Source: Nakamurella sp. PAMC28650 (lineage in GTDB: Bacteria; Actinomycetota; Actinomycetes; Mycobacteriales; Nakamurellaceae). Taken from it: DNA of 64,000 nucleotides. The notes beneath the pieces are model-generated. The model was not told the DNA's origin, did not search any database, and worked only from the letters and a program-made list of their open reading frames with translations. A program made the position numbers and the translations under genes. How positions within the stretch are numbered: position 1 is the first letter of the stretch; each line of letters starts with the position of its first letter. The stretch is from positions 1,178,001 through 1,242,000 of the forward strand of contig NZ_CP060298.1 in NCBI RefSeq assembly GCF_014303395.1, given 5' to 3'. Below are positions 4,573 through 27,137 of this stretch, in pieces.

Positions 4573-5684
4573 GCGGCAGCGGACCTCTCGTGGTCGGCGT
4601 GGTCGGCGCCGGCAAGATCAGCGAGCAGTATCTTGCGAACATGGCGCAGTATCCGGACCTGGACGTCCGGTTCGTCGCCGACCTCTTCCCCGACCTGGCT
4701 CGCTCGCGGGCCGACGAATTCGGGGTGGCCGGGTCCGGCACCGTCGAGGCGTTGATGGCCCGCGACGACGTCGAACTGGTCGTCAACCTGACGATCCCCC
4801 TCGCGCATGCCGAGGTCGCGTCGGCTGCGCTGGCCAGCGGAAAGCACGTCTGGAACGAGAAGCCGATTGCCGCGGCCCGCGTCGATGCCGCCGGATTGGT
4901 GGCGCAGGCGGCGGCCGCCGGTCTGCTGATCGGAACGGCACCGGACACGTTCCTGGGCCCGGGCCTGCAACGGACCCGTCAGATGATCGAAAGGGGTGAC
5001 ATCGGAACACCTCTGACCGCTTCGATGGTGTTCCAGACCGCCGGTCCGCACAGTTGGCACCCGAACCCGGAATTCCTCTACCAGGCCGGGGGTGGGCCGC
5101 TGCTGGACATGGCCCCGTACTACCTCACGGCCATGACGCAGATCTTCGGACCCATCAGCCGGGTGGCGGCGCTCGGTTCGTCGGCCGGTCCGACGCGGGT
5201 CATCGGATCCGGACCGCGCGAGGGCGAGTCGTTCGACGTCACGGTCCCGACCCACGTCAGCGCGCTCTACGAATTCGCCGGCGGCCTCAAGGCGCAGGCG
5301 GTGTTCAGTTTCGACTCCGCGCTCAAGCGCGTCGGGATCCTCGAGATCAGTGGCACCGACGCCACCATCGCCCCGCCGGACCCCAACCGCTTCACCGGTG
5401 ACATCCGGCTGATCACCGCCGACTCGCCGGAAGAGCAACTGATCCCGGCCGGTGATCGACCCGCCGGCCGCGGCATCGGAGCGGTCGACATGGCGCGAGC
5501 CATCCGCGGTGGTGCCGCCTACGGGGGGCATCGGGCGACCGGAGCATTGGCACTGCACGTCCTGGAGGCGATGTTCGCGACCGCCGAGTCGATCGATTCC
5601 GGTGAATTCGTCAGGGTCGAGTCGCGCTTCGAGCCGATCCCGGCACTGCCGGACGACTGGGATCCGACGCAGCGGACGGTGTAG
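4569..5684 (+). CDS. Gfo/Idh/MocA family NAD(P)-dependent oxidoreductase
   Basis: The product is 371 aa, starting at a GTG that overlaps the upstream stop. The Rossmann fold begins VVGVVGAGKISEQYLANM, and WNEKPIA is the family EKP motif carrying the catalytic lysine. The substrate domain contains AGGGPLLDMAPYYLTA, where the Asp and Tyr are typical. The family oxidises sugars, inositols or their derivatives. With the isomerase upstream it probably forms a two-gene carbohydrate-processing module; the substrate is unknown. Confidence 0.9.
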   Translation: MSGSGPLVVGVVGAGKISEQYLANMAQYPDLDVRFVADLFPDLARSRADEFGVAGSGTVEALMARDDVELVVNLTIPLAHAEVASAALASGKHVWNEKPIAAARVDAAGLVAQAAAAGLLIGTAPDTFLGPGLQRTRQMIERGDIGTPLTASMVFQTAGPHSWHPNPEFLYQAGGGPLLDMAPYYLTAMTQIFGPISRVAALGSSAGPTRVIGSGPREGESFDVTVPTHVSALYEFAGGLKAQAVFSFDSALKRVGILEISGTDATIAPPDPNRFTGDIRLITADSPEEQLIPAGDRPAGRGIGAVDMARAIRGGAAYGGHRATGALALHVLEAMFATAESIDSGEFVRVESRFEPIPALPDDWDPTQRTV

Positions 5685-5811
5685 CGGACGGTCCGGCCGA
5701 ACTGAGTCGTTTGGTCGGGCCCGGCTGTCCTGCCGGCGGGTAATTTGGACATCAGATCGGCGGTGCGTCGAAGAAACGGCGCGATGGCCGGTTCCACCTG
5801 TCAGGACTGCC

Positions 5812-5994
5812 ATGCAGATAGACGGATCGTTCGACGTCACCGTCGAGAAGACCGCTTGGGGCGACATCACTCTCACCCTGAGCCACCACGACCTCCGGAT
5901 CGATCTCGATCCCGAGGAGGCGGCCCGCGTCTGCCGTGACGTGTGGACCGCGCTCGGCCACGATCACCCGGCCCGCGACGGAGCGGCCGCCTGA
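5812..5994 (+). CDS. Small hypothetical protein
   Basis: This is a 60-aa open frame starting MQIDGSFDVTVEKTAWGDI and ending in an Ala-rich tail. It has an alternating beta-like first half (TVEKTAWGDITLTLSHHDL) and an acidic helix-like second half (PEEAARVCRDVWTALG). It lies 127 bases after the dehydrogenase on the same strand. The third codon positions are strongly G/C, as in neighbours. I do not recognise the family; it is probably a real small gene. Confidence 0.5.
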   Translation: MQIDGSFDVTVEKTAWGDITLTLSHHDLRIDLDPEEAARVCRDVWTALGHDHPARDGAAA

Positions 5995-6116
5995 GGCGTT
6001 AGCGCCCGGGACGAGGTCGGCCGGCGCACCACATCGGCCTAGCGGCCTGCGCTGACGTGGCTGCGACCTTCTCGCAGGTGGGCGGCACTGTCGGTGGTCG
6101 GTGCAAGGGTGGGTCA

Positions 6117-6380
6117 GTGGGCGAGAACGGTGTGGACGAGAACGGGCGGGATCCGGTCAGGTTGGATCAGGTCATCGTGGCCGCCCAGTTGCACGTGACG
6201 GATGTGGTGCGGCGCGAGGGTGCGTTGCGGGTGGTGACCTCGCTTCGGATGCAGGGTGCTCCGCCGGAGGTCTGCGTGGAATTCGCCGGTCTGGTCGGCC
6301 GGCACCACTACCCGGCGAACGCCAGGGTCAGCGTCCGCCGGCCGCGTCAGTCCAGCGGGGAGTGGAAGAACCAGAGCTGA
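6117..6380 (+). CDS. Small hypothetical protein
   Basis: This is an 87-aa frame from GTG 6117, chosen because AAGGGTGGG lies just upstream. The core reads QVIVAAQLHVTDVVRREG and CVEFAGLVGRHHYPANARV. Codon use is G/C-rich at third positions throughout. Its 3' end overlaps the end of the convergent MerR-type gene by 34 bases, which weakens the case. No family is recognised. Confidence 0.35.
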   Translation: MGENGVDENGRDPVRLDQVIVAAQLHVTDVVRREGALRVVTSLRMQGAPPEVCVEFAGLVGRHHYPANARVSVRRPRQSSGEWKNQS

Positions 6381-7171
6381 CCCTCCGGATCGCGGGCCCC
6401 GTACTCGCGCACGCCGTAGTTCTGGTCGACGGGCTCTTCGATGACGACGGCCCCGGCGGCCACGCTCCGGGCGTGGTGGGCATCCACGTCGTCCACCACC
6501 AGCATCGTCATACTCGTTGCGGCGCCGACAGTCCGAGGAGATTTGAAGTCCTCGCCGGCCGGGTGGAGCCAGATCACCTGTTCGCCGGCGCGGACCTCGG
6601 CGCGGACCGCCCTGCCCTCGCCATTGCGCTCGACCTCCCCGGACGTCAGGCCGAACACCCTGACCAGGTACTCGTGCGCGGCGGCCACGTCGTTGTAGAC
6701 GAGCAGAGCGATGGTGCTGTGGACGGTGGAATCGAGCATGGTCATCTCCTCGAGAGCCCCGAACATCTGGTCGGGGGATGGGTGATCGTGGCGCGCCAGC
6801 TCGGCGGCCATGTCGGACAGCCGGTTGCTGAGGCTGGTCGCGATGTCCGCGCGGCGCTTCGTGTCGCTCAGGTGCCGCTGGACGGCAGGGCGCAGTTCCC
6901 AGTTCGGGTCGTCGAGCACGTGCCCGATCTGCTCCAGCGGAAATCCGAGACGGCGCAACAGGCTGATCCGGTACAGCCTCGCGATGTCTTCGGCGGTGTA
7001 GAGCCGGTGCCCGGCGGAGCTCCGGGTCGAGGGGACGAGCAGCCCGATGTGGTCGTAGTGGTGCAGGGCACGGACCGTCAGTCCGGTCGACTGCGCCAGT
7101 GCGCCGCCCTTCCACGTCCGGCTGCGGTCGTCCGCGTCGGCGTTCTCGTTCGCGCGCTCGTTGGTGGGCAT
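6347..7171 (-). CDS. MerR-family regulator fused to a glyoxalase/VOC domain
   Basis: The product is 274 aa. Residues about 20-90 form a MerR winged helix (LAQSTGLTVRALHHYDHIG, RLYTAEDIARLYRI), followed by a helical linker with DDPNWELRPAVQRHL. The C-terminal part (about 145-274) reads IALLVYNDVAAAHEYLVRVF, ending RDPEGQLWFFHSPLD, which is a glyoxalase/bleomycin-resistance (VOC) fold. A VOC domain in the effector position suggests direct sensing of a small molecule. The start sits directly behind a MerR-type promoter with a 19-bp spacer, consistent with autoregulation. The effector and other targets are unknown. Confidence 0.9.
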   Translation of the reverse strand: MPTNERANENADADDRSRTWKGGALAQSTGLTVRALHHYDHIGLLVPSTRSSAGHRLYTAEDIARLYRISLLRRLGFPLEQIGHVLDDPNWELRPAVQRHLSDTKRRADIATSLSNRLSDMAAELARHDHPSPDQMFGALEEMTMLDSTVHSTIALLVYNDVAAAHEYLVRVFGLTSGEVERNGEGRAVRAEVRAGEQVIWLHPAGEDFKSPRTVGAATSMTMLVVDDVDAHHARSVAAGAVVIEEPVDQNYGVREYGARDPEGQLWFFHSPLD

Positions 7172-14383: not shown

Positions 14384-16225
14384 CTACGGGGCGGGGGCGG
14401 GAGGAACCCAGTTGATCGTCTGCTGGGCCGTCGGCTGGCCACTGGTCAGCGCGTAGAGGGTGTAGATCTGGGTCCCCTGCGCGGGATCACAACCGTTGGG
14501 CGGCAATTCCAACTGGCCTGACGACGGGTAGCCGGTGCCGTAGGAACCGACGATGCCGGGGTTGTCGATCGACAGGGCGACGTCGTGGGTATTGGTGGTC
14601 GTCCACGTCAGCAGGGGGACCGTCGCGCCGGTCGACCTGGAGTACTGGCAGAGCACCGACATCCCGGTGATCTGCGGTGCGGTATTCGGTGCGGTGGTCG
14701 TGGTCGGGGTGGTACTCGTCGTCCGGCGGGAGGTCGTCGGGGTGCTGGTGGCGCTGGACGTCCGGGTGTTGGCCGAGGTCCGCGCCGTCGAGATGGTCGA
14801 CCTGGTCAGCGATGTCGCACTCGACGCGGTGCTGGTGGCGCTGGACGTCCGGGTGTTGGCCGAGGTCCGCGCCGTCGAGATGGTCGACCTGGTCAGCGAT
14901 GTCGCACTCGACGCGGTGCTGGTGGACGCGGTGCTGGTGGACGCGGTGCTGGTGGACGTGGTGCTGGTGGACGTGGTGCTGGTGGTCCCGGTGGGGATGG
15001 ACGCGGTGCTGGTGGTGGCCGGCCTTGATTTCTCGGTCGGCGCGACGACGGTGGGTCCGATCACCAGCGGCACGGCGGCACCGGTGGTCGGTGACCCGGG
15101 CGCCGTCGACGACGAGATGGCCTGCGGTGAAACGGAGATCGCCGGCAGCGGGCCCCGGATCGCCTGCGGTCTCACCGACGGTCGACCGATCGCGACGAAG
15201 GCGCCGATCAGAAGCAGGACGGCGACTGCGGCGGCCACCGCGACGGCCGCGCCGCGCCGTCCGGAACGGCGGCGCTCTGATCCCGAACCGCTGGAGCCCG
15301 GACCGGAGGGATGTGAACCCGAGCCGCCGGACACCCTGGTGCCACCGACGTTCGAGCTCTTCGGCGGCCAGCCGTCGTTCCACGGGTCCGATGGCGGCAC
15401 GACGATCGACCCGGAGCGGGCCTCGTAGGCGGTATCCAGGATGTGCGAGCGGAGACCGATCGGGATCGGCATCGCGAAGGCGGTCCCCGCGCCGAGCAGG
15501 GCAGCGGGTGAGGCCACCCGCTTCTCCTGCTCCTGGCAGAGCGAGCAGTCCTCGATGTGGCGCGCCACGCGCTTGCGCAGCAGGGGCGTCATCGAACCGT
15601 TCCAGTTGCCCAGCAACGCATTGAGCTCGGTGCAGTGGTCGCGACCGGTGCGGGCCACCAGGAGTGCGCCGATCGATCGACGGGCGGTGGCGCGGGCCCT
15701 GGTCAGGAGCTTGTAGGCCGAGCCCGGCGACATCGACAGGGCCGCAGCGACTTCGTCGGTGGCCAGGCCCTGACGATCAGCCAGATCCAGGACCAGGCGG
15801 TCCCGATCGGCGAGCCCGGCGATCGCATCGGCCAGCAGTGCGGCCAGTTCGTTGTCCAGCGCAGCTCCGGCGGGGCTGTCCCCGGCAGGTGCGGCCCGGT
15901 CCGGGCGGCGCTCTTCGGGCACGGCGTCCACGAGCACCTCCCTGGTTCGGCGGTCCAGTCGCCGCAGACATTCGTGCCGGGCGATGGCGAAGAGCCACGA
16001 CCGCAGACGGTCCGGCTCGCGAAGACCCGAGATGCGGGTCGCGGTCAGGATGAAGATGTCCTGCAGGCAGTCCTCCGCGTCGGCGCGGTGGTGCAACATG
16101 CTCTGGCAGAAGGCCAACAGGCGCGGGGCGTAACGATCGAAGATGGCGGCGAGAGCCTTCCGGTCTCCCGCCGCCACTGCCACCGCAAGATCGGCGTCAG
16201 CCGCCTGCGATTCGTCCGAGTCCAC
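14384..16225 (-). CDS. Membrane-tethered ECF sigma factor with fused zinc-binding anti-sigma region and ectodomain
   Basis: The product is 613 aa from a GTG. Sigma region 2 is at about 20-95 (AIFDRYAPRLLAFCQSML, AEDCLQDIFI) and region 4 at about 130-185 (ATDEVAAALSMSPGSAYKLL). A zinc-finger-like HIEDCSLC (His223, Cys227, Cys230) follows, then a Gly/Ser linker, one membrane segment (326-346), a Ser/Thr-rich stalk with an exact 29-residue duplication, and a C-terminal domain (about 530-613). That domain matches the neighbouring lipoprotein (ALSIDNPG, VGS, YTLY and two cysteines). Multi-domain ECF factors with fused anti-sigma and membrane parts are known in actinobacteria. Release by proteolysis is inference. 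Confidence 0.88.
   Translation of the reverse strand: MDSDESQAADADLAVAVAAGDRKALAAIFDRYAPRLLAFCQSMLHHRADAEDCLQDIFILTATRISGLREPDRLRSWLFAIARHECLRRLDRRTREVLVDAVPEERRPDRAAPAGDSPAGAALDNELAALLADAIAGLADRDRLVLDLADRQGLATDEVAAALSMSPGSAYKLLTRARATARRSIGALLVARTGRDHCTELNALLGNWNGSMTPLLRKRVARHIEDCSLCQEQEKRVASPAALLGAGTAFAMPIPIGLRSHILDTAYEARSGSIVVPPSDPWNDGWPPKSSNVGGTRVSGGSGSHPSGPGSSGSGSERRRSGRRGAAVAVAAAVAVLLLIGAFVAIGRPSVRPQAIRGPLPAISVSPQAISSSTAPGSPTTGAAVPLVIGPTVVAPTEKSRPATTSTASIPTGTTSTTSTSTTSTSTASTSTASTSTASSATSLTRSTISTARTSANTRTSSATSTASSATSLTRSTISTARTSANTRTSSATSTPTTSRRTTSTTPTTTTAPNTAPQITGMSVLCQYSRSTGATVPLLTWTTTNTHDVALSIDNPGIVGSYGTGYPSSGQLELPPNGCDPAQGTQIYTLYALTSGQPTAQQTINWVPPAPAP
14742..14915. repeat. Exact 87-bp tandem duplication within the sigma-factor stalk
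   Basis: Two identical 87-bp copies (14742-14828 and 14829-14915) encode 29 Ser/Thr/Arg-rich residues each. They are followed by 15-bp units GTGCTGGTGGACGCG/GTG (14916-14975) encoding Thr/Ser/Ala repeats. The in-frame expansion lengthens the extracellular stalk without breaking the gene. Confidence 0.9.
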
Positions 16226-16243
16226 GATCGTCAGTGTGGGGGA

Positions 16244-17293
16244 TCAATGGCCGGGTGCGGACGTTGTTGCCGAACTCGTCGTCTTCACGGTCGCCGGGTC
16301 GAGGGTCAGTGGTACCGCCGGGAGGAGCAGGGGCGGGACCGGGGCCAAGGTCGGCGCGTCGGTGAGCACCGACGTGGCCGCCAGCGGCGGCGTGAAGGTC
16401 GGTGCAGTCATCGGCGCAGCGGCCGGGGTTGGCAACGGTGACGTCTGGGGCGTCGGTAGCGAGAACGGCGGCGGGGTGATCGCGGTGTAGGTGCCGGTAC
16501 GGACGATCGTCACGGAGGCTTGCGGGCCGGTGCCCCCGACGGTGTAGAGGGTGTACGTCTGCGGGCCGTTCACCGAGTAGCACCCGAGGCTGGGGATCTC
16601 GATCGTGCCGTGCCAGCCGTAGGTGCCGAAAGAGCCGACCAGACCGGGGTTGTCGATCGAGAGCGCCATGCCGGTGGCGTTGGCCATCTCGTAGCTGAGG
16701 TTCTCGTGATAGGCCTGATCGCTCTTGGAGTAGTCGCAGCTGATGGTGGCCGACACGATCCCGGGGGCCGGAACGGCCGCGCCACCGGAGGACGCGCCAC
16801 CGGAGGACGCGCCGCCGGACGACGCGCCTGCTGAGGGTGCACCGGAGGACGACGTCCCGGCGTGGCCGGTACCCGACGCGTTACCGGCTCCGGTCTTCGG
16901 GCCGGTGCCAGGACCGCTTCCCGAGCCCGGCCCGGTCACCGGCTTCGCGGAGGTGGTGACGGTGACAGCAGCGCTCGCGCCGGTCGATCCGTCTGCGCTT
17001 CCCGACCCGATTGCGATGGATCCGGCGGCTGCGACCGACCCGTCCGAGGACGCACCGGAAGCGGAGTCCGCGCCAGGAGAGGGTGACTCGGCGGCCGTAC
17101 TCGACGGCGTGGCATCGAGCCCCGCGGCCGGACTGACAGCGGCGCTCCCCGCGGCCGGGCTGACAGCGGCCTGGGTCACGAAGGCCTGCGGGGGAACGGC
17201 CGAGCCGTTCAGACCCGACTGGCAGGCGGTCAGCGCGAGGAGAGCGAAGCCGCCGATGATGGTGGCGGCCGCGGTGGTGGCAATCCGGTTCAT
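16244..17293 (-). CDS. Lipoprotein sharing the sigma-factor ectodomain
   Basis: The product is 349 aa. The N terminus has a hydrophobic stretch ending LLALTAC, a lipobox, so it is probably lipid-anchored outside the membrane. A long Gly/Ser/Ala/Pro linker (about 40-180) follows. The domain at about 185-265 (ISCDYSKS, MALSIDNPGLVGSFGTY, IPSLGCYSV, QTYTLYTV) matches the C-terminal domain of the downstream sigma factor, including both cysteines. A Pro/Thr-rich tail ends the protein. It lies 18 bases upstream of the sigma gene on the same strand, so the two are co-transcribed. It may be a ligand, sensor partner or decoy for the sigma ectodomain; this is inference. Confidence 0.85.
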   Translation of the reverse strand: MNRIATTAAATIIGGFALLALTACQSGLNGSAVPPQAFVTQAAVSPAAGSAAVSPAAGLDATPSSTAAESPSPGADSASGASSDGSVAAAGSIAIGSGSADGSTGASAAVTVTTSAKPVTGPGSGSGPGTGPKTGAGNASGTGHAGTSSSGAPSAGASSGGASSGGASSGGAAVPAPGIVSATISCDYSKSDQAYHENLSYEMANATGMALSIDNPGLVGSFGTYGWHGTIEIPSLGCYSVNGPQTYTLYTVGGTGPQASVTIVRTGTYTAITPPPFSLPTPQTSPLPTPAAAPMTAPTFTPPLAATSVLTDAPTLAPVPPLLLPAVPLTLDPATVKTTSSATTSAPGH

Positions 17294-22407: not shown

Positions 22408-23088
22408 CTGGTGTCACTCCCTTCCGCGCGACTCGGTGGCGATCCACCTGGTCTGGTGCCTGGAACTGCGGAGATACCGGAAGAGCCCGGCGCGCACGGT
22501 TCACCGTCGGAGTCTCTGACGCTGCCGGGACCGTCCAGGTTCCGCAGATGCCCCAGCAGAACCGCCAACTTCGCCCGCCCCCGGGCGCAGCGGCTCTTGA
22601 CGGTGCCCTCCGCGACCCCGAGCGCCACGGCCGCATCCGCGACCGAGTAGCCCTCGACGTCGACGAGCACGATCGCGGCACGTTGGTCGCCCGGGATGGT
22701 CCCCAGTGCCTGTTCGATGTCCATCGCCAGCTCGCGATCCGCGTAGGCATCGCCGGACGGCCGGCTCGCCGGGTCCCTCCTCCGGGAGCGGCACCGTCGG
22801 CCGGACCTGACCCCGACGGATCCGGTCCAGGCAGGCGTTGACGACGATCCGGTGCAGCCAGGTGGTGACGGCCGATTCGGCCCGGAAGCGGTCGGCGGCC
22901 CGGAAGGCGGAGATGAAGGCGTCCTGGACGGCGTCGGCCGCTTCCTCGGGATCGCGCAGTGTGCGCAGCGCCACCGCCCACATCCGGTCCCGGTGACGGG
23001 CCACCAGCTCGCCGAACGCCTGCGGGTCGCCGGCGGTGTGCGCGGCCAGCAGTTCGGCGTCGCTCCGTCCGGAATCCAGGGCCTGCAC
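22404..23088 (-). pseudogene. sigM: ECF RNA polymerase sigma factor SigM, frameshifted
   Basis: Sigma region 2 (HRDRMWAVALRTLRDPEEAA, DAFISAFRAADRF, VTTWLHRIVVNACLDRIRR) is in one frame; region 4 (DQRAAIVLVDVEGYSVADAA, VAEGTVKSRCARGRAKLAVL) continues in the +1 frame. Removing one G from the run at 22775-22777 gives continuous PLPEEDPASRPSGDAYADREL, so a single inserted base explains the break. The stop still overlaps the anti-sigma start. It could be a sequencing error, a true null or a programmed shift. Locus order murJ-sigM-anti-sigma-trxB-trxA is the conserved one. The start is a GTG with a possible -10 TAGGCT 6 bases before. Confidence 0.85.
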
Positions 23089-23141: not shown

Positions 23142-26100
23142 TCAGTTGCCCGAGACCGAGATCTCGTTGAGGTGGGATTGGAATCGTGATCCGGTGGGGG
23201 CCATCTGCACCACGAAGATCACCAGGAACTGCGACTTCGGCGCGTTCGTGAGCGGGATGGTCGCCGTTCCGGGGGCGCTGTTCGTGCCCGGCGGGATGTT
23301 GCCGCGGCCCAATGCCGTGGTCTGCTCGTAGGGCAGGTCGACCCCGGTGGCCGAACGCACCTCGACGACGGTGTTCGGGGTGTCGGAGGAGACGGTCACC
23401 GAGGTCGGGGTGATCGGGCCCGCGAAGGTCAGCTGGAGGCCGACGCCGGGCTTGAGGGAGGGGAACTGCCGGATGTAGACGAATGTTTCCCAGAATGTGG
23501 TCGGATCCCCGTCATAGGCCAGTGGGACCCGGTCGGCGAAGTCCTTGACGCCGTCGCCCTTCGGGTCGTACACGGACGCGGACTCGATCTTCTGCACCAC
23601 GGCCGGTGCAGGAGCCGCGGAGCTGGAGGCACTGCTCGACGGCGTCGGGCCCGACGCCGAGGCAGTGGTCGGCTTCGTCGCCGAGGTCCTGGCCGGAGTC
23701 GGCTTGGTGACCGGAACCGCCGGAGCGGTCGGTGCCGAGGTCAGCTTCTGCGCTGCGGTGACCGTCGGCCCCGCGACGTCTCCCATCACGGTCTTGGCCA
23801 GACTCGCCACCACGATGATGATCAGTGCCGAGAACGCCGCGATCATCACGGCCGCGATCCCGAGCTTGGCCCGTCGTTCCTTGACCAGCCGGCGCTCGGC
23901 GGGGTTGAGCACGGGTCTGATCGGCTCGGCCACGCCCGCGGACGGTGCCGGCGGGGCGATGTCGGGCTGGCGCAGCAGTGCCGCGATGGCTCCGACGGCG
24001 TGGATCCCGGCCGGGTCGTCCGGATGGAGGGCCCGCTCGGCCAGCGCCGAGAGTGCCTCGGGAACGCCGGGACGAACCTCGGAGGCGGGAACCTCCCGGC
24101 CCATCCTGGTCGGCGCGGGGGTCAGTTGCCCCGGCGTGCCGCCGCCGGGCCTGACGGTGCGATCGGCACCGCCGGCACCGCCGGCACCGGCAGCACCGGT
24201 CCAGGCGGCCGCGCCGGCGGGCAGCGGCCAGGTACCGGTCAGCATCAGGTAGAGGAGGCCGCCGACGGCGCGGATGTCCTGGTCAGGGGTGGCGTTGCCG
24301 TGCGCGATGACGTGCGAGAGCCGCACCTGACCGTCGAAGTTCACGCGCACCAGCGAGGGATTGATGGCGCCGAGGGCGATGCCGTTGCGATGGGCCTCGG
24401 CGACCGCTTCGGACACCTTCGCGGTGATCGATGTGGCGACGTCGGGTTCCAACGGTCCACCGGCCAGCAGATCGGTCAGGGTCGCCCCGTCCACCCACTG
24501 CCCGACGACGTACGACTGGCCCTGCTCGGTGCCGACGTCCAAGGTCTGCGGAAGGCCGATGTGGTGCAGGCGTCCGACCCGCAGCGTCCTGGCGACGGTC
24601 GCCGAGGCGGCGTTGGTGTCCGGGAGCAGCGTCACCGCCATGTCCCGCGGGAGCACGGTGTCCTTGGCGCGCCAGAAGCGGTTGCCGGCGTCGTCCGCCC
24701 CGACCAGGCTGACCAGCCGGTACCGGCCCCCGACGGTCGCTCCGGGGGCCAGTACCACCGGTGGGCCGCCGGCTCCGGAGGTACCGCCCAGGTTCACGGT
24801 GTTCTCCGAACCGGAGCCGGAACCGATGGTGGTGTCGTTGGGCGAGGACCCTGGCACCGGATGGACGACCGGGACCGGCCCGTCGGGGGTGTCGCGGGGA
24901 CGGCCCGCACCTGCATCGCTCACGCGCTTGGTGACCTGCTCTCTGATGGGTGGGCGGGCTGGTGTGGGTGGGCGGGCCGGTGTGCCAGGGCGGGCAGTGG
25001 GAACCGTCAACACGACGGGCCCCGCAGATCCTCCCATTGACGAGGGTGAAGTCGCGGTGACGGGCGGCCGGAAGCCGAGCACGCGCAGGACCCTGCGACG
25101 CACCGGGTCCAACTCCTCGACGCCCAGGACGATCGACATGATCGAGATCACCAGCAGCCCGACGATGCCGCCGAGCAGGAGGATCCTGACCGCGTCGACG
25201 GGGCCGTCCGGGGAGGTTCCGACCGTAGAGCGCAGCACGACGTAGGCGGCGCCGCCGCCGACGGCGGACGCGAGGAACATCTTCCCGATGGTGGTCAGGG
25301 TGCGGGTGCTGCCCATCCGGCCGAAACGGGCGCGTAGCCAGAACTCGCCGACCACCGCTCCGACGAGGTACGAGATCGCCGTCGAGAGGGCCAGTCCGGG
25401 GATCACCCATTTCGGGTCCAACGAGGCACTGACGAGCAGCAGCGGCACGCGCACCGCGACCATCACCCCGTTGATGATCGTCGGGGTCCGACCGTCCTTG
25501 ACGGCGTAGAAGACCCGCATCTGGACGAGCGTCATGGCCAGTGGCACCAGTCCGATGGCCATCGCTGCGATGGTCACCCCGATGCGAAGGACGTCGGCAT
25601 GGGCGGCCTGCCCGTAGCCGAACAGCACCGTGGCGAGGCTGGTCCCGAGGACGATCAGGGCGGCCGAGACGGGCAGCAGCGCCACCGACGAGAGCCGGTT
25701 GGCCAGCGAGACGTCGTCCTTGACGTCCTCCATCTGCCCGGCCGCCGCGTGACGGGCCAGTCGCGGCATGATCGCCGTCAGGACCGCGACGCCCAGGATG
25801 CCGTACGGCATCTGGAACAGCAGCGACGCGTAGCTGAAGACCAGCGGCCCGCTGGAGGCGGACCCGAAGGCGACCCTGGTGGTCACCACCACGCCCACCT
25901 GCGAGATCAACACGTAGACCAAGGCCCAGCCGACCAGTCCGCCGGCCTCGGTGAGGCGACGGTCCCAACCCCATCGCCAGCGGAAGCGGAATCCGGACCG
26001 CAGGAGCGCCGGGATCATCACCACGGCCTGCAGGACGATGCCCAGCGTGGTGCCGACCCCCAGGATCAGCAGCTCGGTCGTGTTGAGGCCACGGGTGAGG

Positions 26101-27137
26101 GACGTATTGGAGACGCGCACCGTCAGCAGCACGCCGGCGACGACGATGACGATGACGTTGTTCAGCACCGGTGCCCAGGCGTTGGCGGCGAACCGCTCCT
26201 TGGTGTTGAGGATGGCTCCGAACAGTGCCGCCACCCCGTAGAAGAAGATCTGTGGCAGCAGCAGCCGGCCCAACTTGGTCGTCAGGGCCGTCTGCGACAC
26301 GAGGTCGGGGTTGCGGGCCGAGCTGCTGGGTGCGTAGAGATGGGTCAGCAGGGGCGCGGCGGCGACGGCGATGACGGTGGCGATCAGCAGGCCGACGACC
26401 GCGATCGTCATGAGTCGCTGGGTGTACTCCTGGCCGCCGTCCGCATCCGAACGCTGCGCCCTGGTCAGCAGCGGGATGGCGACGGAGGTCAGCACGCCGC
26501 CGATCAGCAACTCGAAGACGATGTTGGGCAGGGTGTTGGCGACGGTGTAGGCGCTGTTGGTCAGGCCGCTGCCGATGATGGCGACCAGGGCGGTCTTGGA
26601 CAGCAGACCGGTGACGCGACTGACGACGGTCGCGATGGCCATCAGAGCGCCGGCGCGCACGACGCCGGCGGTGCTGGCCGTCTTCATGCCGTCGGTGGCC
26701 GAGCGGCCGATGCTGACCGTCTCGTCGTCGCGGACCTGACGGGGCACGGCCTGGTCGGTGATCCGCTGGATCAACATGGTCGCGTCCTCGGCGGCCGGGA
26801 ACATCGCTCCGGGGGGCGCGCCGATCCACGGCCGCTCGTTCTGCCGCACCGGGCCCCGGACTTCGCGACCCGGTACCGACGGTGGGCGGGATACCGGATG
26901 ACGGGTGTCGTTCACCCGCGTGAGGGCCTCGCGCTGGGCCTGCTCGCGCTCGTCCCTGGCACGTTGGGCCTGCACGCGTTGCAACCGTTCGCGGTCGAGC
27001 CGGAGTTGGTCGAGACGCTCCCGCTCACCCCTTTCCTGCTGGGACTTGCGGAACCACTCGGGTGGGGTGCCGCTGCCGGGTGGGGTGCCGGTCGGATCCG
27101 AGGGGGACGACGGACCGGGCGGGCGCGGTCCGGTCAT
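23142..27137 (-). CDS. murJ: Lipid II flippase MurJ (MviN) with pseudokinase and discoidin-like ectodomain
   Basis: The product is 1331 aa. A charged cytoplasmic lead of about 150 residues precedes the multi-span flippase (TASTAGVVRAGALMAIATVV onward, about 14 segments), which flips lipid II for cell-wall synthesis. After a Pro-rich linker comes a kinase-like domain (GGRYRLVSLVGADDAGNRFW); its ATP lysine position reads MAVTLLP, its catalytic loop GAINPSLVRVN, and no DFG is seen, so it is a pseudokinase. Another membrane helix and an extracellular domain (YDGDPTTFWETF, about 1190-1331) with a discoidin-like pattern follow. This is the mycobacterial MviN architecture, where FhaA binds the phosphorylated pseudokinase. 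The ATG overlaps the upstream stop. Confidence 0.95.
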   Translation of the reverse strand: MTGPRPPGPSSPSDPTGTPPGSGTPPEWFRKSQQERGERERLDQLRLDRERLQRVQAQRARDEREQAQREALTRVNDTRHPVSRPPSVPGREVRGPVRQNERPWIGAPPGAMFPAAEDATMLIQRITDQAVPRQVRDDETVSIGRSATDGMKTASTAGVVRAGALMAIATVVSRVTGLLSKTALVAIIGSGLTNSAYTVANTLPNIVFELLIGGVLTSVAIPLLTRAQRSDADGGQEYTQRLMTIAVVGLLIATVIAVAAAPLLTHLYAPSSSARNPDLVSQTALTTKLGRLLLPQIFFYGVAALFGAILNTKERFAANAWAPVLNNVIVIVVAGVLLTVRVSNTSLTRGLNTTELLILGVGTTLGIVLQAVVMIPALLRSGFRFRWRWGWDRRLTEAGGLVGWALVYVLISQVGVVVTTRVAFGSASSGPLVFSYASLLFQMPYGILGVAVLTAIMPRLARHAAAGQMEDVKDDVSLANRLSSVALLPVSAALIVLGTSLATVLFGYGQAAHADVLRIGVTIAAMAIGLVPLAMTLVQMRVFYAVKDGRTPTIINGVMVAVRVPLLLVSASLDPKWVIPGLALSTAISYLVGAVVGEFWLRARFGRMGSTRTLTTIGKMFLASAVGGGAAYVVLRSTVGTSPDGPVDAVRILLLGGIVGLLVISIMSIVLGVEELDPVRRRVLRVLGFRPPVTATSPSSMGGSAGPVVLTVPTARPGTPARPPTPARPPIREQVTKRVSDAGAGRPRDTPDGPVPVVHPVPGSSPNDTTIGSGSGSENTVNLGGTSGAGGPPVVLAPGATVGGRYRLVSLVGADDAGNRFWRAKDTVLPRDMAVTLLPDTNAASATVARTLRVGRLHHIGLPQTLDVGTEQGQSYVVGQWVDGATLTDLLAGGPLEPDVATSITAKVSEAVAEAHRNGIALGAINPSLVRVNFDGQVRLSHVIAHGNATPDQDIRAVGGLLYLMLTGTWPLPAGAAAWTGAAGAGGAGGADRTVRPGGGTPGQLTPAPTRMGREVPASEVRPGVPEALSALAERALHPDDPAGIHAVGAIAALLRQPDIAPPAPSAGVAEPIRPVLNPAERRLVKERRAKLGIAAVMIAAFSALIIIVVASLAKTVMGDVAGPTVTAAQKLTSAPTAPAVPVTKPTPARTSATKPTTASASGPTPSSSASSSAAPAPAVVQKIESASVYDPKGDGVKDFADRVPLAYDGDPTTFWETFVYIRQFPSLKPGVGLQLTFAGPITPTSVTVSSDTPNTVVEVRSATGVDLPYEQTTALGRGNIPPGTNSAPGTATIPLTNAPKSQFLVIFVVQMAPTGSRFQSHLNEISVSGN

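Follow-up and report, generated by a model that had tools for sequence, protein, structure and literature searches.

A predicted membrane-tethered extracytoplasmic function sigma factor of Nakamurella sp. PAMC28650 shares its ectodomain with the lipoprotein encoded directly upstream

We analyzed two adjacent minus-strand genes in a 64,000-nucleotide stretch of the Nakamurella sp. PAMC28650 genome (contig NZ_CP060298.1, positions 1,178,001 to 1,242,000), here called the window, whose own numbering is used below. The first open reading frame (ORF) encodes a lipoprotein and the second, which begins 18 bases behind it, encodes an extracytoplasmic function (ECF) sigma factor whose chain continues through a zinc-finger-like motif, one predicted membrane helix and a stalk to an ectodomain homologous to a domain of the lipoprotein. 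An original prediction made from the sequence had proposed this arrangement, and the ORFs, Pfam matches, hydropathy and BLASTP confirm it. Apart from this sigma factor, the domain was found in lipoproteins only. Our tentative explanation, to which we give slightly less than an even chance, is that the protein is a fused sensor sigma factor with an ectodomain of lipoprotein-family type. It would recognize either the target of the partner lipoprotein or that lipoprotein, and proteolysis would release it.

The product of the downstream gene is an ECF sigma factor with sigma-70 regions 2 and 4. Region 2 (residues 29–95) matches PF04542 with 47.3 bits (cut-off 24), region 4 (residues 130–179) matches PF08281 with 31 bits (cut-off 25.7), and TIGR02937 matches at an expectation value (E) of 5.8e-23 with 81.3 bits (cut-off 42.9). 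The following motif, HIEDCSLC, is of the HxxxCxxC type, and HxxxCxxC with an upstream His-Cys is typical of anti-sigma zinc domains. Pfam zinc-finger models gave no match in the sigma factor, and the designation as zinc-finger-like is by motif. The stalk contains an 87-bp unit in 2.2 copies (98% match) and a 15-bp unit in 7.1 copies, and from these repeats its length may vary among strains. The two repeats adjoin each other (14734–14925 and 14910–15015). Residues 331–613 consist of 23% Thr, 17% Ser and 10% Pro, and the reading frame is unbroken for all 613 codons, repeats included.

The ectodomain of the sigma factor and the domain of the lipoprotein are 44% identical across 89 residues (BLASTP, E 3e-18), which rules out chance similarity. 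A profile of the domain matches the sigma frame at E 2.9e-38, the profile itself containing that sequence. All 12 aligned sequences retain two cysteines that the original prediction had not listed (C13 and C66 in the numbering of the sigma copy), and this invariance suggests a disulfide bond between them. Both are kept in the sigma copy, together with the DNPGIVGSYGT core. AlphaFold2 predicts the same immunoglobulin (Ig)-like sandwich for both domains with nearly the same strand order (mean predicted local distance difference test scores of 81.8 and 80.5, predicted template modeling score 0.70 each); the models are of single chains, were built from alignments of the same four sequences, and were compared without superposition. 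The original prediction had named a difference between the predicted structures as a possible refutation, and the two models agree in fold. Foldseek returned weak Ig/fibronectin type III-like and other sandwich matches for both domains and none at E ≤0.001. The best were at E 7.1e-3 with a template modeling score of 0.61 for the sigma domain and at E 2.6e-2, to a SoxYZ chain, for the lipoprotein domain. A sequence search of the PDB up to E 10 gave no match to the domain. A known Pfam/NCBIfam domain was also considered and rejected: the lipoprotein matched no family, and among the families shown the sigma factor matched only sigma families, apart from one sub-threshold helix-turn-helix.

The lipoprotein is recognized by pattern, with a lipobox at residues 21–24 behind a hydrophobic stretch, and its domain is followed by a 79-residue tail. 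A search of the host genome, a single contig of 5.63 Mb, found the domain three times at E up to 1, namely in the pair and in one other lipoprotein 4.2 Mb away (contig numbering). By a rough estimate that assumes 5000 genes, two of only three copies would fall in adjacent genes by chance about once in 1000 cases, and such an arrangement is not expected by chance. The domain occurs in 3 of the 17 genomes that sample the family Nakamurellaceae, all of one genus, and profile searches found it in 10/397 genomes of the order, 3/394 of the class and 5/366 of the phylum (samples overlap). In total it was found in 17 proteins of 15 genomes, 16 of which have a lipobox, the remaining one being the sigma factor of the window. 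As far as sampled, it is primarily an actinobacterial lipoprotein domain, and the lipobox of all 16 other proteins indicates that it works outside the membrane. The description of the lipoprotein as a free copy of the sigma factor's own sensing domain, as originally put, thus has its direction reversed, since the domain is at home in a family of lipoproteins, to which the sigma factor forms the exception.

These lipoproteins share a signal peptide, a lipobox and a low-complexity linker of 51–149 residues (n = 16). The linker of the window's lipoprotein is the longest and is close in length to the sigma stalk, which suggests that the two copies are displayed at equal height. One lipoprotein of N. 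silvestris (locus L004 of our survey, 5248–6450) carries the domain twice in tandem, and the first of the two copies is very diverged. No fused sigma factor was found in 10 other loci (9.5–15 kb) around domain-bearing lipoprotein genes, and no ECF-type genes lie near the copies in L100–L107, L111 and L112. ECF-type frames 1.4 kb (L004) and 4.4 kb (L099) from other copies are shorter than the fused sigma factor and were taken as chance. In the 14 other genomes with such lipoproteins, no second protein carrying the domain, whether a sigma factor or not, was found within the reported E-values and the scored candidates.

Table 1 Features of the gene pair (window coordinates) and of sortase genes beside homologous sigma genes (locus coordinates).
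Feature	Position	Strand	Description and basis
ECF sigma factor continuing into a zinc-finger-like motif, a single membrane helix, a stalk rich in Thr and Ser, and an Ig-like ectodomain	14384..16225	-	613 amino acids, GTG start; ORF, Pfam/NCBIfam matches
Sigma regions 2 and 4	15689..16141	-	Residues 29–179; PF04542 and PF08281 (Pfam) exceed their cut-offs
HIEDCSLC, zinc-finger-like HxxxCxxC with His-Cys upstream	15536..15559	-	Starts at residue 223; sequence
Predicted membrane helix	15188..15244	-	About residues 328–346; hydropathy maximum after HIEDCSLC, mean 2.97
Thr/Ser-rich stalk with 87-bp and 15-bp tandem repeats	14687..15187	-	167 residues; sequence, repeat finding
Ectodomain with two conserved cysteines, predicted as an Ig-like sandwich	14387..14686	-	Residues 514–613; BLASTP, alignment, AlphaFold2
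Gap from lipoprotein stop to sigma GTG	16226..16243	-	18 bases; sequence
Lipoprotein with lipobox LTAC, 149-residue linker, shared domain and Pro/Thr-rich tail	16244..17293	-	349 amino acids; ORF, BLASTP, AlphaFold2 model
Shared domain in the lipoprotein	16460..16774	-	About residues 174–278; BLASTP, profile match, AlphaFold2
Sortase-domain proteins upstream of sigma genes	L068 6130-6867; L072 6005-6865		75 bp (L068) and 25 bp (L072) from the sigma gene
Sortase-domain proteins downstream of sigma genes	L063 3690-4298; L070 3513-4127		48 bp (L063) and 81 bp (L070) from the sigma gene

The genes on either side of the pair are on the plus strand and encode a VTT-domain protein (upstream) and a DUF1275 protein (downstream); the pair therefore forms a two-gene unit that is presumably co-transcribed. 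Because no clear Shine-Dalgarno sequence was seen by eye in the gap before the sigma GTG, translation of the sigma factor is likely coupled to that of the lipoprotein. A scan for sigma-70 promoters gave one weak site, located inside the lipoprotein gene. A search of plasmids gave two weak matches.

Homologues of the sigma factor are distributed mainly outside its family. Within the family, 7 of the 16 other genomes match at E ≤1e-12 with 27–35% identity, several in very long frames, and none matches at 1e-35. With the own genome included, 26/397 genomes of the order match at 1e-35 and 57/394 of the class at ≤1e-18, the best approximately 15 places showing 45–52% identity. We took 58 homologue loci, consisting of 40 regions that cover 43 of the 79 class places outside the own genome (mostly the top ones) and 18 regions from 18 further genomes of the order. 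Two other regions, L108 and L109, did not enter the analysis. With the window counted, a simple gene caller found 59 sigma genes, spread over 55 loci; the sigma gene was missed in four of the 58 loci (L075, L097, L122, and L128), which were left out of the gene-based counts and kept in the six-frame search. Of the 59 sigma genes, 58, among them that of the window, encode HxxxCxxC, and in 55 of the 59 a hydrophobic helix follows the motif. The architecture of sigma regions, zinc finger and helix is thus recurrent among the homologues.

The ectodomains of the homologues are variable, with either proline-rich tails or, in 19, a C-terminal part that ends near a cysteine. Many of these 19 parts look by eye like another Ig-like domain; kinship of the window's ectodomain to that domain was not supported (hhalign probability 0.65%). 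Among the sigma genes the domain profile matches the window's alone (E 6.6e-32; next best 0.19), and a six-frame search of the 58 homologue loci (630 kb) detected no match with E ≤1. Of the 55 loci in which a sigma gene was called, only the window has an ectodomain in common with a non-sigma neighbor; in L081 and L115 the ectodomain is common to sigma paralogues. Neighboring fused sigma paralogues occur in L065, L067, L081, L115, and L119, with a 75-amino-acid membrane-protein-like ORF between them in L065. Sigma-like matches in open frames of 603–1666 residues occur in six Nakamurella genomes (L009, L010, L012–L015), among them the own one with a frame of 1405 residues, and the frames of L010, L013, and L014 have long repetitive parts behind the sigma region.

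A same-strand non-sigma gene stands within 50 bp upstream of 11 of the 59 sigma genes, the window's own pair among them. By an automatic rule, and with overlaps of up to 100 bp allowed, 7 of these 11 neighbors are exported, compared with 88 of 473 other genes (Fisher p 0.0015, post hoc). With downstream genes added, 8 of 18 neighbors are exported (Fisher p 0.013, post hoc). The neighbors in L067 and L115 were scored as non-exported and look exported by eye, and the one counted in L130 is probably no gene. The original prediction made its case depend on homologous sigma factors occurring beside such a lipoprotein. In this narrow form the expectation fails, as none of the 58 homologue loci gave a match to the domain at E up to 1. 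In a wider form it stands, since surface proteins of other kinds (other lipoproteins, an LPxTG-type protein, a sortase, proline-rich membrane-anchored proteins) are encoded directly before a few of the sigma genes. Neighbors that lie close or fairly close are lipoproteins in L127 and L129, which show no resemblance by eye, an LPHTG protein in L073 (19.1 bits with Pfam Gram_pos_anchor, cut-off 20), and proline-rich membrane-anchored proteins in L065 and L067. Four genomes from two families have sortase-domain proteins (PF04203, 66–76 bits) encoded beside a fused sigma gene (Table 1). Pairing of fused sigma genes with surface proteins may thus recur.

Under the explanation that we favor, the pair would be a one-piece surface-sensing system, in which a zinc-finger-like anti-sigma segment of the same chain, possibly with bound zinc, holds the sigma factor at the membrane in an inactive state. 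The stalk would hold the Ig-like, probably disulfide-bonded domain outward. This ectodomain would have been taken from the actinobacterial lipoprotein family, to which the upstream partner, with its domain on a linker of similar length, also belongs, and both copies would probably recognize one envelope component, or each other. A change of contact would open the stalk or the helix to proteolysis, and the released sigma part would transcribe its own operon and hence the lipoprotein. The homology together with the adjacency, the common predicted fold, the lipoboxes of the 16 other domain proteins, the similar lengths of stalk and linker, the recurrent architecture and the exported neighbors (post hoc) count in favor of such a sensor, as do the precedents of IutY and RsgI6 described below. 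Frames of the M50 site-2-protease type are present in the host genome, and likewise in 14 of 14 control genomes, so that they are only permissive for proteolytic release. The arrangement suggests that the cell uses a duplicate of a component of its own to monitor a surface structure, and the original interpretation is partly supported.

Several observations weigh against the sensor explanation. The matched pair was found in one genome only, and its function consequently has no support from conservation. The two models of the fold depend on alignments of four rows. In the tree, the ectodomain of the sigma factor and the domain of its partner do not fall together (92/87, weak), and a recent copying of the partner's domain is not apparent. 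The matched height may mean little because the linkers of Nakamurella lipoproteins are long in general (88, 109, 138, and 149 residues in the four measured), and no convincing common promoter was seen by eye upstream of these four lipoprotein genes. No same-strand upstream gene lies within 50 bp of 48 of the 59 sigma genes. The neighbor test was run on the data that suggested it, included related loci (L127 and L129 are of one genus) and relied on a gene caller that mis-set some starts; the excess of exported neighbors is therefore a lead.

The same features allow the lipoprotein to be read as a negative regulator that binds to the ectodomain of the sigma factor or, as a decoy, takes up the ligand of that ectodomain, and so blocks cleavage until the surface is disturbed. 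The common domain, the adjacent genes and the similar display height agree with this, and a precedent exists in CseA of Streptomyces coelicolor, a lipoprotein that dampens an ECF pathway from within its operon (PMC6767563, available part). However, no evidence speaks for a homotypic contact, CseA is thought to act via a sensor kinase, and the lipoproteins of the 14 other genomes have no second domain protein to regulate within the search described above; we consider this account rather doubtful. Equally, the pair could be a by-product of local duplication and fusion, with a generic Ig-like spacer in the ectodomain slot of the sigma factor and no functional link to the lipoprotein. To judge from the translations, sigma factors of this group differ widely in their ectodomains, the C-terminal domains of other homologues gave no sign of kinship with the window's, the match occurs in one genome, and 44% identity means long divergence. 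Retention of the two cysteines and the core in the sigma copy nevertheless points to constraint, and exported close neighbors recur (post hoc), so that a by-product appears somewhat unlikely.

A broader version of the sensor explanation is that part of the fused sigma group is wired to a dedicated surface protein of the adjacent gene (a lipoprotein, LPxTG-type protein, sortase or proline-rich protein) and monitors its display or assembly. The present case would then be homotypic, with the same domain at matched height, co-assembly or competition between the copies, and a sigma factor that counts its own product; we regard this as unlikely on present grounds. It is most improbable that the sigma factor receives no signal from outside and is a membrane-stored or decaying gene with an irrelevant ectodomain: it has no close relative in the other genomes of its family, but its frame is intact including the repeats, its sigma regions score above the cut-offs, and many homologues exist outside the family.

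Elsewhere in the window, another sigma gene of ECF type (22501–23088, minus strand), recognized by the Pfam match to region 2, lies directly downstream of a gene for a MurJ lipid II flippase (23142–27137, minus strand) and is followed by a 344-amino-acid ORF without a Pfam match. We take this order of flippase and sigma genes to resemble the mviN-sigM arrangement.

Fused ECF factors are known in actinobacteria, as the original prediction had stated. ECF48, ECF52, and ECF53 join a sigma factor, a zinc-finger domain, a membrane helix and an extracytoplasmic extension (PMC8999054, PMC5826349). According to the available parts of these papers, they are expected to be freed by proteolysis, which a truncation of SCO4117 (ECF52) supports, and no signal has been demonstrated for the membrane-fused actinobacterial factors; IutY is described as the only fused case characterized by experiment (PMC8999054). 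The plan of the sigma factor is thus already known, and what appears to be new is the domain shared with the adjacent lipoprotein, in one genome. The view that such a domain-sharing partner was undescribed holds among open PubMed Central papers, where no description of a domain common to a fused sigma factor and an adjacent lipoprotein was found. An ectodomain that apart from this sigma factor was found in lipoproteins alone, one of them the product of the gene directly upstream, provides a concrete and testable candidate signal or partner, and the exported neighbors at some homologues would extend this lead if confirmed by a fresh test.

By motif and hydropathy, the present protein resembles ECF48, ECF52, and ECF53 in having zinc finger, helix and extension in one chain. 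It differs in that no carbohydrate-binding module was recognized and the ectodomain is of lipoprotein type and common to the upstream gene; the proline-rich stalk with a carbohydrate-binding domain that marks ECF52 was not seen, the ectodomain having no Pfam/NCBIfam match among the families shown. IutY of Pseudomonas putida (ECF243) is likewise a sigma factor fused to a membrane-bound anti-sigma part, from which stepwise proteolysis frees the sigma factor, whereas a domain-sharing lipoprotein is not mentioned for it in the available part of PMC8999054. With sigE-cseA the pair has in common a lipoprotein that is encoded in an ECF sigma operon and influences it there: loss of CseA raises sigE promoter activity in S. 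coelicolor. CseA, however, affects sigE transcription, possibly via the sensor kinase CseC, and sigE needs a two-component system (PMC6767563, available part). The closest parallel in logic is SigI-RsgI, in which the surface sensing module is similar to one of a secreted protein under the control of the sigma factor; here, likewise, the sensor domain is homologous to a domain of a surface protein. In the available part of PMC4711584, the GH10 module of Clostridium thermocellum RsgI6 is 57% identical to Xyn10D, and SigI6 recognized the xyn10D promoter in a Bacillus host. For the present pair, the gene order suggests that the sigma factor would transcribe the lipoprotein gene. In SigI-RsgI, the sigma and anti-sigma factors are separate proteins and the modules are carbohydrate-active or carbohydrate-binding, so that the two systems have their logic in common and not their parts.

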